The position numbers and the translations under genes are program-made. DNA of 53,280 nucleotides from Robiginitomaculum sp. (GTDB lineage Bacteria; Pseudomonadota; Alphaproteobacteria; Caulobacterales; Maricaulaceae): NCBI GenBank assembly GCA_002733805.1, contig NVXG01000039.1, forward strand, positions 1-53,280, read 5' to 3'. Shown here piece by piece: positions 11,843 to 19,715 of the stretch (the first letter of the stretch is position 1; each line of letters starts with the position of its first letter). Under the pieces are notes generated by a model. That model did no database searches, was not told the DNA's origin, and was given only the letters and a program-made list of their open reading frames with translations.

Positions 11843-12400
11843 TTATTTTTCGCACACCCACTCCGCGCGGCTTTGCCCCCAGATCTGATTGGTGATCTCT
11901 CCATACCCGGCCAGTTTTTCGATGGTTCGCAAATGGCGGGAACCCAGTGCCGCTGCCAGTTTTTGTGAAGGAATGTTCTCGGGTGATATGACATGGATCA
12001 CTTGATCCCAGCCCAAATCATCAAATGCGTATGCCATGGCAGCCATCGCGGCTTCAAACCCGTAGCCCTTTCTCCAACACGCCCGGTGGATCACCCAACC
12101 CACTTCACGGCCGGGCCAATCCTGTGGGAAATGGGTTCCAACGCTTCCCACCACTGCGCCGCTTGTCTTTTCCAAAACGTCAAAAAAACCGTACCCTCGT
12201 AAGGCCCAATGGCCAACTTGTGCAGCGAACGAGCGCCAGGCTAGAGCTGGCACAATGCCGCCACCCAACAGCGCCATGGTTTCCTCATCCCTGGCCATTT
12301 CAGCGCGCTCTGCAAAATCTGCCAAAATCGGGGGGCGCAAAATCAACCGTTCTGTTTCAATCGTCGGGCCAAGATCTAAGGTTGGGCGGCGCTCATCCAT
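11843..12400 (-). CDS. GNAT N-acetyltransferase, RimJ/RimL type (second of a tandem pair)
   Basis: 185-aa acetyl-CoA-dependent N-acetyltransferase of the Acetyltransf_3 group. The opening TIETERLILRPP and the CoA-site region VGWVIHRACWRKGYGFEAA are typical. It closely resembles the upstream neighbour (shared ETxRLILRPP, ALAWR, GHWALRGYGFF, LGSR and IWGQS/VWGQS), and overlaps it by eight bases, so this is a tandem duplication. Substrate unknown; related enzymes modify ribosomal-protein N-termini or small amines. Confidence 0.88.
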   Translation of the reverse strand: MDERRPTLDLGPTIETERLILRPPILADFAERAEMARDEETMALLGGGIVPALAWRSFAAQVGHWALRGYGFFDVLEKTSGAVVGSVGTHFPQDWPGREVGWVIHRACWRKGYGFEAAMAAMAYAFDDLGWDQVIHVISPENIPSQKLAAALGSRHLRTIEKLAGYGEITNQIWGQSRAEWVCEK

Positions 12401-12938
12401 TATGTCGCGCCCGCCATTCGGCTTGGCTTTGCCCCCAAACTACGATTTTCATCGGACCAAAACCGGGCAATTCATCAACTTCCCGCAAGGGTCTTGATCC
12501 CAATGATTCTGCCAAAGCAGCAGAGCCGGTATTGGCTGGGTCGATCATATGGGTCACTTGTGGCCAATGCAGATGATCAAAGGTCCAATTGATGCTGGCA
12601 ATCGCCGCTTCACGGGCAAACCCTTGTTTCCAGCGCGAGCGAATAATAGTCCAACCGACCTCTGGCTCCGGCCACAAATGCGGATACCACGGCCCAACCC
12701 GGCCAATCCACTGGCCGGTGCTTTTCTCAATCACAGAAAAGAAACCATAGCCCCGCAAAGCCCAATGGCCGCTGAGCATGGCAAAGGTCCGCCACGCCAA
12801 TGCCGGTTCGCTAACTCCGCCAATAAACTGCATGGTGGTTTCGTCCTGGGCCATTTCAGCCAATGCCTCAAAATCCGATGATTGCGGCGGACGTAAAATC
12901 AAACGGTCGGTTTCAAGGATCAAATTTGGGTCATACAT
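12393..12938 (-). CDS. GNAT N-acetyltransferase, RimJ/RimL type (first of a tandem pair)
   Basis: 181 aa from ATG 12938, chosen because AGGAT precedes it; a GTG ten codons upstream is less likely. LILETDRLILRPPQSSDF opens the GNAT domain and VGWTIIRSRWKQGFAREAA is the acetyl-CoA loop. Paralogue of the gene that follows at 11843-12400. The two stop/start regions overlap by eight bases, implying a shared transcript. Divergence between the copies (GTHFPQDWP against GPWYPHLWP in the central region) suggests different substrates. Confidence 0.88.
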   Translation of the reverse strand: MYDPNLILETDRLILRPPQSSDFEALAEMAQDETTMQFIGGVSEPALAWRTFAMLSGHWALRGYGFFSVIEKSTGQWIGRVGPWYPHLWPEPEVGWTIIRSRWKQGFAREAAIASINWTFDHLHWPQVTHMIDPANTGSAALAESLGSRPLREVDELPGFGPMKIVVWGQSQAEWRARHNG

Positions 12939-13004
12939 AGCTCTATCCTGCAATCTGGTTTGAACCACAGGATAGAAAGACTATCGCCAGTTTTCCAGCC
13001 CCGA

Positions 13005-16348: not shown

Positions 16349-16799
16349 TTAATCCAACACCCGATATGACGTGACATTTGAAACAAAATCGCGTCTGCCG
16401 CCAACATCCCGATGGCGCCGATAAACAAACGGGGCTTCGCGAGAAACCCAGAAATGGCTGACTGTTCCGCCCCATGTTTTGCTTTCGATCACCCAACAAT
16501 CACAAGAGACACCGGAATCCAGTTCTAGATGTTCTTTTCGCAATACGGTGTATTCATCAAACTCAGAAGAAACCCGACCACCCTTGCGCGGGTAGGCTTG
16601 CGGTAACTTGAACTTCGCACCAATTTCCATAGGCATCAGCGAAGCAAGAGTTGGCGAGAACATGATGTCTACGCTTCCCTTATTGGCCAGTTCTCCGGTG
16701 ATGCGTATCGGATCCCCACCGCCAATTGGCGTACGCACCCAATCATATGAATTCTTGGTGTTCTGGGCCACAATGTATTCTTTGCCAAAGGCAAAATAA
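16349..16799 (-). pseudogene. Secreted hypothetical protein, 3' part, split by an IS1595 element
   Basis: C-terminal part of a gene whose 5' part lies at 19162-19498. Joining base 19170 to base 16799, which removes the element and one copy of the 8-bp duplication, restores an open frame: ...EFAAQPYF then AFGKEYIVAQNTKNSYDW... The rebuilt protein is about 261 aa, starts with a signal peptide and ends SNVTSYRVLD. Family not recognised; the SCDCWVIESKTWGGTVSHFW stretch resembles DUF3108-like periplasmic beta proteins, but this is weak. The fragment has no start of its own. Confidence 0.9.
16792..16799. repeat. 8-bp target duplication, left copy
   Basis: CAAAATAA, repeated at 19162-19169 directly outside the other end of the IS1595-family element. 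Eight bases is the usual duplication size in this family. Confidence 0.9.
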
Positions 16800-16825
16800 G
16801 GGACCTATATACCTACCTGACCCAA
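16800..16825. repeat. Left terminal inverted repeat of the IS1595 element
   Basis: 26-bp end beginning GGGACCTATATACCTAC. It matches the reverse complement of 19136-19161 except at position 18 (C against T). Confidence 0.93.
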
Positions 16826-16832
16826 TACGGGG

Positions 16833-18179
16833 TCAACCATCATTCTTTAATGCTGAATTTAGAAAATAGGTCTGTACGAACTGCCTACCCTTCTCTGTTC
16901 CGCGGAATCCTCCCGGAATATCCTCTGCATACCCCTGATAAATGAAGTTGTTTTTACTGGTTTTATGGGATTTTAGATTCCGCACTATCTGGCTGAATTT
17001 TGAGTCCTTGCGACTCATATTTTCTGCTACAGCCTCATCTGGTACTGTAATATATTTTGGTAGTTCAGCTATCAGATCGGTTGTGCTCATTTCCATATCT
17101 GGTTGTTGCACGATAACAAGCAGCGCATATTTCCAAAGATCGGCTTTCAAATCAATTTTCCTAGCGCTATCACTAGTTCTCTCTGGTTCAGGTAGGGGTG
17201 TGCTTTGAGCAGTTAACTTCTTTTGCCGCTGGCGTGCGCGGGCAACCTTTTTTACATCTTCTGCTACCGGTAGATTTTCTGGAACAACGCCACCAAGTTC
17301 CGTGATGGCTTGGCGCACCCTTTTGCCGACCTCATAATGCGCTAGGCCAGCAGCATGAGCCCCCTTAACCTCTTCCTTGCGAAGTTTCTCTTCGGTTTGT
17401 GTAATACGAAATAGATTTGCTGCCAGTTCCGTGCTTCCCATTCGATCTAGTATTTTGGCAGATTTTGGTAGGCCCTTGTGGCGACGAATTTCTTTTACTC
17501 CACGGCCTCCATAAAGGCCCTCATATCCTTTGTTTTGGAAAATTCCATACTCCACGCCGTCTTTAACGCCCGCTCCACTTGCAGCTCTCGCTAACTTTTT
17601 GTTTTCCTCAACAACCTGGTTGCGCAGATAAAGGCGTTGTTCAATTTCTGATAATGTAGAAAAATCTACGCCATTCTGATCCGTCAACTCCTGTCGGCGG
17701 GTTTGAATCGCAAAATATGTTTGGGCGAATGCCACTTGCCTTTTACGTGAAGAGGCATTTTGTGCAATCAGGTAGCAGGCATAACGAGAGAGTTGAAAAT
17801 CTTTCGCGGGACGCCCCCCTTCGGAGTTTTTCGGCTTATCCCGAAAAACCTCCTTAAAGTGGCTGGCGGGGTCGTGCTCACTATTGACGCAAGCAATAAC
17901 CGCCCTTTGAATTACACTATCAAAATCTTCCCAGCGCTTATATCCCAGAAGTCGCTGTAAGTCTCTAGCAAACCAGACCTTATCGCCAGAACCAATTTCT
18001 TGTCCCGCGAGTTCAAATTCATCTATAAGGCTTTCTATTGTTTCTTCTGGAACCGATGCCTGCTCAATATCTTCCACTTCTTCCAGTTCTGTTCCAGCAA
18101 CGCGTTCTAGCGCCTCTTCAAAGTCCATATCAAACTCTACCGGCTCGTCGGCCTTAATGGTCTTTTTTTTATCGTTCAT
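16833..18179 (-). CDS. DinD-like protein with C-terminal winged-helix domain, IS passenger gene
   Basis: 448 aa. Residues about 48-310 match DinD (DNA-damage-inducible protein D): VWFARDLQRLLGYKRWEDF, VIQRAVIACVNSEHD, LSRYACYLIAQNASSRK, FAQTYFAIQTRRQEL, GYEGLYGGRGVKEI and RMGSTELAANLFRITQTEE. E. coli DinD is about 274 aa. This protein adds an acidic N-terminus (1-47), a basic linker (ARARQRQKKL, 313-322) and a winged-helix-like domain (about 345-440, Mrr N-terminal-like: WKYALLVIVQQPDMEMST, GGFRGTEKGRQFV). The ATG overlaps the transposase stop (ATGA), so it is co-translated with transposase. DinD is known to inhibit RecA-mediated strand exchange; a role for this version in transposition or host SOS control is inference. 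Confidence 0.85.
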   Translation of the reverse strand: MNDKKKTIKADEPVEFDMDFEEALERVAGTELEEVEDIEQASVPEETIESLIDEFELAGQEIGSGDKVWFARDLQRLLGYKRWEDFDSVIQRAVIACVNSEHDPASHFKEVFRDKPKNSEGGRPAKDFQLSRYACYLIAQNASSRKRQVAFAQTYFAIQTRRQELTDQNGVDFSTLSEIEQRLYLRNQVVEENKKLARAASGAGVKDGVEYGIFQNKGYEGLYGGRGVKEIRRHKGLPKSAKILDRMGSTELAANLFRITQTEEKLRKEEVKGAHAAGLAHYEVGKRVRQAITELGGVVPENLPVAEDVKKVARARQRQKKLTAQSTPLPEPERTSDSARKIDLKADLWKYALLVIVQQPDMEMSTTDLIAELPKYITVPDEAVAENMSRKDSKFSQIVRNLKSHKTSKNNFIYQGYAEDIPGGFRGTEKGRQFVQTYFLNSALKNDG

Positions 18180-19093
18180 GCGATCAAATCCTTATAAAGA
18201 AGGCGTTTGCCACTTGCGGCATGAAGTAACATATTAACGCGGTTGCCTTCTTCCACGTCTCGGTTATTTTGGCGGAACATCATTTCATCAAGATAACGCT
18301 GAAGGTGCTTTGCAGAGACAAAATGATGAATGCCAATAATTTGGCGCTTGAGGAGCGCCCACGCGCTTTCAATCGTGTTCGTATGGAAGAAATACCATCG
18401 AACATACTCACCGGCACTGTGATTGACTGTGTAGTGGTTGTATTCGCCATCTAGTCCACGATAAACACGGGCCTCGTCGGTTAGAAGTGTTGCTCCTACC
18501 TTCACATTTCTTCGAATCATATCTTTTGCAACTGTACCCGTTAGGTCCTCAACCTTTTCAAACCTGACCTCACCATCACGAGATTTGACACCAAGCACCG
18601 GAGTTTTTCCTACTGCACCACGACCTCTATTTAGTTTTTTATGGCTATGTTTATTTTTCTCTTTCCCACCGACGAACGTTTCATCAGCCTCAACCGTGCC
18701 ATCAAGCGGACGATTAAAGGACTTCGTTTTAGCCGCACAGCGCAATCTATGCAGCATGAACCATGCAGTTTTTTGCGTAACTGAAATGTCTTTAGCAAGC
18801 TGAGTACTGGCGATGCCTTTCTTATGGGAAGTAATCAGCCATATCGCCATAAACCACTTTTGAAGACCAATTTTACTGTCCTCAAAAATCGTTCCGACCT
18901 TGATTGAAAACCGCTTGCGACAATCGCCGCACTTATGCGTTTTTTGGTCAGCGAAATGGTATATTTTAATTGAGCCGCAATGTGGGCAATACGCGCCACG
19001 CTTCCACCGAATGGCCTCAAAATGTTTGATCGCCGACAATTCGTCAGGAAAGGCTTTAAGCAGATCAAATAGACTGTCAAATTGCTGAATCAT
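18176..19093 (-). CDS. IS1595-family (ISXO2-like) transposase
   Basis: 305-aa DDE transposase. An N-terminal zinc ribbon (CPHCG, C36/C39; CGDC, C55/C58) is followed by a helix-turn-helix (ISVTQKTAWFMLHRLR, 103-118). The catalytic core comprises VEADETFVGGKEKNKH (D137), LLTDEARVY (D206) and FFHTNTIESAWALLKR (N239/E242). This is the ISXO2-like domain layout of the IS1595 family. GGAG lies seven bases before the ATG. Full-length with no frameshift, hence potentially active. It supplies the start signal for the coupled DinD-like gene. Confidence 0.96.
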   Translation of the reverse strand: MIQQFDSLFDLLKAFPDELSAIKHFEAIRWKRGAYCPHCGSIKIYHFADQKTHKCGDCRKRFSIKVGTIFEDSKIGLQKWFMAIWLITSHKKGIASTQLAKDISVTQKTAWFMLHRLRCAAKTKSFNRPLDGTVEADETFVGGKEKNKHSHKKLNRGRGAVGKTPVLGVKSRDGEVRFEKVEDLTGTVAKDMIRRNVKVGATLLTDEARVYRGLDGEYNHYTVNHSAGEYVRWYFFHTNTIESAWALLKRQIIGIHHFVSAKHLQRYLDEMMFRQNNRDVEEGNRVNMLLHAASGKRLLYKDLIA

Positions 19094-19135
19094 TGTAAGC
19101 TCCGTTTGTGGAGCCTTTATGGCATTAAATCAGAT

Positions 19136-19161
19136 TTGGGTCAAGTAGGTATATAGGTCCC
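19136..19161. repeat. Right terminal inverted repeat of the IS1595 element
   Basis: 26-bp end; its reverse complement begins GGGACCTATATACCTAC, matching 16800-16825 with one mismatch. CAAAATAA follows immediately. Confidence 0.93.
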
Positions 19162-19169
19162 CAAAATAA
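19162..19169. repeat. 8-bp target duplication, right copy
   Basis: CAAAATAA, identical to 16792-16799 on the other side of the IS1595 element. Confidence 0.9.
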
Positions 19170-19498
19170 GGTTGGGCGGCAAACTCGGCGCGATGGGTTT
19201 TCAGATCAATCACTCGCTGGGCAACAATCACATTGTCTTTCATTGGAATGATGTCGATCATTGACAGTTTTTTGTCATTGCCAGATTTGCGAGCTTGCAT
19301 GAAAAACCGGCCGTTTTTTCCCATGGCGCTATTATAGCCAACTTCGAAATTTTCAAATTTTGGAGTTTTGAAATGCTTGTCGCCCGGTAAAATGGTCAGG
19401 GCTTCATCCGCCGCTAACCCCGCGCCAGCTCCTGCGAACACCAGACATAAACCGGCAGACAAATACCGAAACAACCGAGATTTTCCAAAACTTTTCAT
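19162..19498 (-). pseudogene. Secreted hypothetical protein, 5' part, split by the IS1595 element
   Basis: N-terminal part of the gene continued at 16349-16799. ATG 19498 is preceded by AGGAG. A signal peptide (about 1-29: RYLSAGLCLVFAGAGAGLA) is followed by ADEALTILPGDKHFKTPKF. The frame reads into the element after PYF and stops eight residues later inside the terminal repeat. A truncated exported peptide of about 122 aa could still be made. Confidence 0.9.
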
Positions 19499-19715
19499 AA
19501 GACATATTCTCCTGAACAATTGATTTGTTTGAATTTTATGTTGTGAATTGAACTGGAGCTTGGATTTCAAACAAGCCAAATGGGTCCAGAGGCACATATT
19601 TGTGGCCGGACGTGTTCAAACAAAATGTCAAAAGTAAACTCAAAATCCGATCAAGGGTGAACGTACCCAGATTGGGGATGAGTGAATACTGTGCGCCAAG
19701 TTGGGCCAGTTTGGC

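Follow-up and report, generated by a model that had tools for sequence, protein, structure and literature searches.

A DinD-like passenger in an IS1595-family element of Robiginitomaculum: a candidate cassette slot behind a conserved leader

Background

Passenger genes are reportedly known in general from the IS1595 family of insertion sequences, following the work of Siguier and colleagues in 2009, and the question raised here is what a relative of DinD, a protein that inhibits RecA in Escherichia coli, does in such an element. The window of this study is the whole 53,280-nt stretch of Robiginitomaculum sp. that was analysed (assembly GCA_002733805.1, contig NVXG01000039.1, positions 1 to 53,280); at 16800-19161 it holds a complete IS1595-family element of 2,362 bp, in which the transposase gene is followed by a gene for a DinD-like protein of 448 aa. 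The initial annotation of the window had proposed that this gene could tie transposition to DNA damage. The reading we favour instead, with a probability of roughly 45%, is that the element belongs to an IS1595 group with a cassette slot after the transposase, in which a leader serving the element is followed by exchangeable cargo of the Bro-network or defence type.

The element and its passenger

Both genes, like the terminal repeats, are read on the minus strand. The transposase (305 aa, 18176-19093) scored 140 bits with the Pfam profile DDE_Tnp_IS1595 (cut-off 27) and 204 bits with the NCBIfam IS1595 profile (cut-off 75); it is of the ISXO2-like DDE type with a zinc ribbon, which places it in the IS1595 family, and its residues D137, D206, N239 and E242 are invariant in four aligned copies. 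Inverted repeats of 26 nt with 96% complementarity, at 16800-16825 (passenger end) and 19136-19161 (transposase end), are the sole pair of at least 14 nt reported within 16500-19500, and they are flanked by two copies of the 8-bp target duplication CAAAATAA (16792-16799 and 19162-19169). In a sister genome of the same genus (G012) the site is empty (locus L192; L numbers denote loci throughout): the joined flanks align over 595 bp, ungapped and with 88% identity, and contain a single CAAAATAA. The inverted repeats, the duplication and the empty site thus confirm that 16800-19161 is a genuine mobile element, and together with the transposase profiles they bear out the family assignment of the initial annotation. 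A DNA search of its own genome, which is 94.7% complete, revealed one copy of the element.

The passenger gene (16833-18179) starts within the stop codon of the transposase gene, and the gene coordinates confirm the ATGA overlap described earlier, an arrangement that would couple translation of the two genes. Its product combines a leader module (residues 1-40, 18060-18179), a DinD core (residues 46-323, 17211-18044) that includes a Bro-N domain (residues 64-153, 17721-17990), and a C-terminal part (residues 345-448, 16836-17147). The core reached 339 bits with the NCBIfam equivalog ‘DNA damage-inducible protein D’ (NF008573, cut-off 242), so that its description as DinD-like stands, and Bro-N scored 31.4 bits with Pfam (cut-off 25.6). 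AlphaFold modelled the full passenger with a mean predicted local distance difference test score (pLDDT) of 82.7 and a predicted template modelling score (pTM) of 0.47, the N-terminal residues having low confidence.

Residues 345-448 are predicted to form a winged helix, as had been proposed from the sequence: modelled alone, they gave three helices and a two-strand wing with a pLDDT of 84.9 and a pTM of 0.79. The best Foldseek match of this domain was the MarR-like structure 4b8x (probability 1.00, template modelling (TM) score 0.54, E 0.067), with no match at E ≤0.001. Against PDB sequences the domain produced 11 weak matches, the best to the EndoAI antitoxin (E 0.01) and the others to MHC class I chains, and the whole passenger none up to E 10. 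The same domain also exists as nine separate proteins of about 100 aa (L006-L008, L021-L026). In one of these loci (L008, 1483-2777) the stand-alone winged helix adjoins, in convergent orientation, a different IS1595 transposase with 29% identity. In L116, a viral-contig relative described below, an Mrr_N match remained below the Pfam cut-off (E 0.015).

A leader accompanies one group of transposases

Searches with the transposase yielded loci from 61 of 385 genomes of the class (threshold 1e-40), 14 of 249 genomes of the order (1e-60), one of 43 genomes of the order of G120 (1e-90) and nine of 398 genomes of the phylum (1e-70), to which 115 plasmid records (five of them opened), 80 kept out of 117 viral loci and 20 further regions were added, giving 139 unique loci in total. 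A midpoint-rooted quick tree was built from 62 of these; transposases with less than 43% identity or, L116, L124 and L094 excepted, fewer than about 200 matched residues were left out, and 22 of the 59 inner branches are unresolved. In this tree the transposase of the window falls into a group of 19 rows with an SH-aLRT support of 99. Wherever the host is known, it is alphaproteobacterial.

A leader of about 35 residues, resembling PLxLDMxFxEALxRFxxTxPxEV, accompanies 18 of the 19 transposases of the group (all but L094), as judged with a profile to which 16 of those 18 had contributed. Among reversed sequences that profile picked up one protein, at E 0.079, and the leader of the window was found with E 2.8e-5 by a profile made without it. 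A profile built from the seven stand-alone leaders only, which are separate proteins of 52-74 aa in sibling elements, recovered 13 of 21 passenger N-termini with E values of 7e-14 to 6e-3 (3,111 sequences), comprising every one of the 11 fused group members, a Zymomonas remnant and, weakly, a Dam-type fusion (L091, E 0.0044) placed just outside the 19 rows. The same profile found none of eight more distant passengers and none of nine ordinary DinD proteins. The acidic N-terminus, which the initial annotation had taken for a gain of DinD, is therefore a module of the element, and a DinD with a newly acquired acidic tail was rejected, as the leader profile assigns the segment to the element. This assignment of the N-terminal segment to the element, as a leader that stands alone or ahead of exchangeable proteins, is what appears to be new here.

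Behind the transposase, seven rows carry the leader alone, five a DinD (the window, L002, L003, L116 and L014), four a RhuM (L066, L069, L089 and L090), one a hybrid of KilA-N and DinD (L124) and one an unknown protein of 184 aa (L088), the last row being L094 with no leader. L069 had come under suspicion as a frameshifted RhuM, which its frame of 385 aa rules out. A coupled start, defined as an open reading frame beginning between -30 and +60 from the transposase stop, lies at exactly -4 in 15 of the 19 rows. In one of the leader-alone elements, L067, the leader is not adjacent to the transposase. Between the two, this element (L067/L181, 8-bp duplication CAGATTCA) bears an IrrE/ImmA-like peptidase gene (Pfam M78, 68 bits) and, antisense, a gene for a membrane-like protein. 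When the flanks of the 19 rows and L091 were read, exact 8-bp duplications were present in 11 of the 20 elements; in L116 seven of eight bases agree, and the remaining eight elements have none, some of them ending at a contig or stretch end.

Leader-like stretches are also coupled to more distant IS1595 transposases, all as weak matches (L114, E 1.1e-4; L132; and L097, where the stretch lies towards the C-terminal end of a small protein). If these weak matches hold, they would make the leader a general component of the IS1595 family.

Recurrence, exchange and selection of the passenger

Among 61 relatives the passenger matched six genomes including its own, three over the whole length and three with the winged helix alone; in the 385 genomes of the class there were 19 matches, made up of its own genome, 12 with DinD (L014 included) and six with the winged helix only. 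In a phage collection 251 records matched, but more than 80% of the length was covered only in two Zymomonas records. Full-length relatives were found in metagenome-assembled genomes of Robiginitomaculum (L002, 95%; L003, 85%), where the neighbouring genes differ from those of the window, on viral contigs (L116, and L124 with KilA-N replacing Bro-N), where by eye the neighbours resemble phage tail, portal and terminase genes, and on Zymomonas mobilis plasmids (58%; seven records with a long match, two of them opened). A peptide-pattern search of the viral contigs for the passenger had found none; it was the transposase search that yielded L116 and L124.

In every one of these full-length relatives a transposase or a fragment of it directly precedes the gene. 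Thus the recurrence anticipated earlier is observed: transposase-DinD pairs return with the same kind of ends, and the combination of leader, DinD and winged helix is carried by L002, L003, L116 and the Zymomonas copy as well. The initial annotation had also reckoned with the gene lying outside the repeats in relatives. In these searches the three-part form was found solely behind a transposase or its remnant, and ordinary DinD genes also exist apart from such elements; enclosure by repeats is unproven for L003 and the Zymomonas copy, each of which misses one repeat, the latter retaining the right repeat with four mismatches and no left repeat being seen. Altogether, the recurrence supports the DinD fusion as a probable true passenger.

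A comparison of the window with L002 revealed a mosaic: element positions 1021-2245, corresponding to passenger residues 13 to about 421, contain 29 differences in 1,225 sites, whereas 167 differences in 1,137 sites were counted beyond them. The log-likelihood gain was 63.9, and on a coarser grid none of 60 permutations was as good; dS is 0.063 in the DinD core versus 0.57 in the transposase. This mosaic indicates that the passenger was probably swapped between copies independently of the transposase; as the break lies inside the leader, part of the leader would have travelled with the core. In L124 exchange of another kind is apparent: KilA-N (73 bits) occupies the position of Bro-N, the C-terminal half of DinD is kept at 144 bits, below the whole-protein cut-off, and the winged helix is kept with 67% identity.

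The ratio of non-synonymous to synonymous substitution rates (dN/dS) of the passenger was 0.213 for window-L002, 0.083 for window-L003 and 0.046 for L116-Zymomonas, the last with saturated dS and a transposase broken in both. Judged from these values, the passenger sequence is under purifying selection. In L116 an in-frame deletion has removed the catalytic part of the transposase, in L124 the catalytic part is gone as well, and in Zymomonas a 63-residue match with a stop is left; all three nevertheless have an open passenger frame. In L116 (3977-4462) and L124 (4001-4426) the N-terminal half of the transposase is kept beside the open passenger, and these halves are possibly dominant-negative derivatives. 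That the passenger is a neutral gene captured by chance and now decaying, for which its single copy in its own genome and the decay of some copies could speak, is hardly credible, since the gene recurs at different sites in three chromosomes and also on two phage contigs and one plasmid, with dN/dS well below 1.

Families in the slot and the favoured reading

With PADLOC models the DinD of the window matched PDC-S13 (340 bits) and, more weakly, a type I specificity model and PDC-S05; the two of the four RhuM passengers that were scanned, L089 and L090, matched PDC-S05 with 338 and 353 bits. Pfam scans of eight of the 11 more distant or odd coupled proteins gave five DNA methyltransferases of four Pfam families, one P63C, one PAPS-reductase-like domain and one protein without a family (L094). 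P63C and KilA-N were found in further coupled proteins, KilA-N in L035 and L124. The slot proteins of relatives are thus of kinds found in phages and phage-defence regions, and the passenger families favour a cargo that would handle foreign or damaged DNA. The match of the KilA-N part of L124 to BstA and the candidate likeness of the DinD core to DdrC, both qualified below, count on the same side.

According to the favoured reading, of a slot with an element-serving leader and exchangeable cargo, a promoter with TTGACC, located in the repeat, would drive transcription, and through coupled translation any synthesis of transposase would also yield some passenger. The leader would serve the element, most likely by touching or regulating the transposase, while the DinD part would be cargo acting on DNA breaks or single strands. 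This cargo may be of benefit because it interferes with rival phages or plasmids, and not because it acts as an SOS switch.

Several points weigh against this reading. Large coupled genes are a minority among all IS1595 relatives, a complete coupled frame of at least 150 aa being present in 30 of 137 loci overall compared with 12 of 19 in the group; large passengers are therefore more a trait of the group than of the family. Seven group members carry the leader without a fused domain; the domain is therefore dispensable for transposition, and the role of the leader is a putative one. Several copies are decayed, since a stretch of 3.5 kb in L003 contains no convincing right repeat, L002 lacks a target duplication and the DinD frame of L014, whose transposase is 63% identical to that of the window, is cut short at 257 codons, its similarity to DinD reaching residue 244. 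The low dN/dS of L116-Zymomonas may partly predate the breakage of the transposase, and for the methyltransferase relatives no repeat was shown to enclose the gene. The PDC families of PADLOC are presumably candidates only, and the KilA-N part of L124 fits a transcription-regulator family of the PHROG collection best (6e-23), BstA coming third (E 2.5e-13), so that the likeness to PDC-S13, PDC-S05 and BstA consists of profile matches and leaves a defence role of the passengers as a candidate. The likeness of the DinD core to DdrC of Deinococcus radiodurans, found by Foldseek with probability 1.00 and E 4e-5, comes with TM scores of 0.23 for the query and 0.46 for DdrC, a root-mean-square deviation of 16-19 Å and 16-18% identity; among PDB sequences, too, the DinD profile matches DdrC best, albeit weakly (E 0.087), and the DdrC chains of 207-235 residues leave no room for a leader or a C-terminal winged helix.

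Among the alternatives, the passenger could be an accessory transposition protein, whose leader and DNA-binding domains bring it to the transpososome or the target DNA, where it would govern the location or frequency of transposition. The -4 coupling in 15 of 19 rows, the tie between the leader and its transposase group and the DNA binding predicted for both Bro-N and the winged helix would suit such a role. We nevertheless regard it as doubtful, as the domain family behind the leader varies, the domain is absent in seven elements, five of which have exact 8-bp duplications, and copies with a broken transposase still have an open passenger frame.

A more specific version of the slot, a plug-and-play arrangement in which a transposase-binding leader is constant and Bro-network or defence effectors are swapped behind it, seems rather unlikely to us; were it true, each effector would be delivered to transposing DNA or carried as an immunity gene.

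An antirepressor function has also to be considered, in which the passenger would bind repressors or operators of the host or a prophage and induce resident prophages or satellites as a vehicle for the element. Bro-N, KilA-N and P63C are known from proteins of the phage antirepressor type, a sibling element (L067) carries the IrrE/ImmA-like peptidase, the KilA-N part of L124 has its best PHROG match among transcription regulators, and two copies lie within phage contigs. No target repressor was identified, however, and the C-terminal half of DinD corresponds to no known antirepressor effector; this explanation is unlikely. It would have a parallel in satellites, which Bro-network proteins regulate, eta of P4 being translationally coupled to an alpA homologue (PMC10111431).

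Quite improbable is the proposal from which the analysis of this locus started, that the passenger modulates RecA or the SOS response and couples transposition to DNA damage. The match to the DinD equivalog profile, the inhibition of RecA by E. coli DinD and the DdrC-like core speak for it. DdrC itself is a DNA-binding protein that prefers single strands; it shields DNA from nucleases, promotes the annealing of strands and turns linear DNA into circles (PMC5436757). Of the four kinds of LexA-type boxes sought, GTTCN7GTTC, GAACN7GAAC, CTGTN8ACAG and GAACN4GTTC, no exact copy is present in the element, although a divergent box could escape this search, and in sibling elements the slot contains RhuM or a KilA-N hybrid, or lacks a domain altogether. 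For these two reasons the suggested link to DNA damage is unsupported.

Relation to known systems

The element of the window shares with the IS1595 family (Pfam PF12762) the transposase, the zinc ribbon, the terminal repeats and the 8-bp duplication; its group differs by a conserved coupled leader and exchangeable Bro-network domains. Compared with DinD as defined by NF008573, whose cut-off passenger residues 46-323 exceed, the passenger has a leader before and a winged helix after the core, sits in a transposon and lacks an exact LexA-type box. A 2003 paper by Bideshi is reported to describe class II transposons of prokaryotes that carry Bro-like genes, and the general association of Bro genes with transposons may therefore already be published. 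Swapping of Bro-network domains has been described for phage satellites (phage-inducible chromosomal islands, PICIs), where such a gene, eta of P4, is coupled to the preceding gene (PMC10111431). The passengers studied here resemble those domain-swapping Bro-N and KilA-N proteins, with KilA-N replacing Bro-N in L124, but are carried by an IS1595 element, in which they follow a transposase and a group-specific leader. Among the matches listed in a literature search, which left subscription papers mostly outside, no title or abstract opening links DinD, RhuM or KilA-N to an IS1595 element.

An otherwise simple insertion sequence in which the adaptor stays constant while the protein following it varies would blur the boundary between insertion sequences and cargo transposons, and would offer a testable route for the spread of DinD, RhuM and KilA-N genes. 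The leader itself is short and conserved, and how such a peptide acts on the transposase of an IS1595 element is directly measurable.

Upstream signals, host gene and neighbouring genes

The transposase-end repeat contains TTGACC at 19139-19144, assigned by eye as a -35-like element, and in many group members TTGACC in the repeat is followed 17 bp on by a -10-like box, likewise read by eye. A hairpin is predicted to cover the ribosome-binding site of the transposase (19097-19116, minus strand, z -3.35). At the same place most of the group have a predicted hairpin of differing sequence, z lying below -1 in 16 of 20 elements compared with nine of 20 and one of 20 in two coding controls, and the mean z being -1.9 upstream versus -1.2 and +0.5 in the controls. 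The controls are too close for a firm conserved structure, which was rejected; the hairpin is suggestive only.

The element interrupts a host gene that is present in three of 21 genomes, its own counted, and is intact in G012 as an open frame of 329 codons. Its 3' part lies at 16349-16771 and its 5' part, 96% identical to the G012 counterpart, at 19163-19498, both on the minus strand.

Some further genes behind IS1595 transposases were recorded. Eight relatives with 39-42% transposase identity (L044, L048, L050, L053, L057, L059, L060 and L075) have an R-x4-H-like stretch downstream of the transposase, of the RNKYVH or RHKLAH type; by eye these proteins are HEPN-like, Pfam giving no family for L057. 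Small proteins after the transposase in L051 and L056 (antisense) and in L076 (sense) contain an ‘LLRxLLxTPPQPxPK’ or ‘ALRRITPAPPKPK’ stretch; they are leader-like in outline and possible partners of the HEPN-like genes. In L070/L182 and L078 an antisense gene of about 320 aa follows the transposase and appears trypsin-like by eye, the L070 protein having no Pfam family. Elsewhere in the window, at 11843-12968, two tandem GNAT-like acetyltransferase genes with overlapping ends were recognised by eye.

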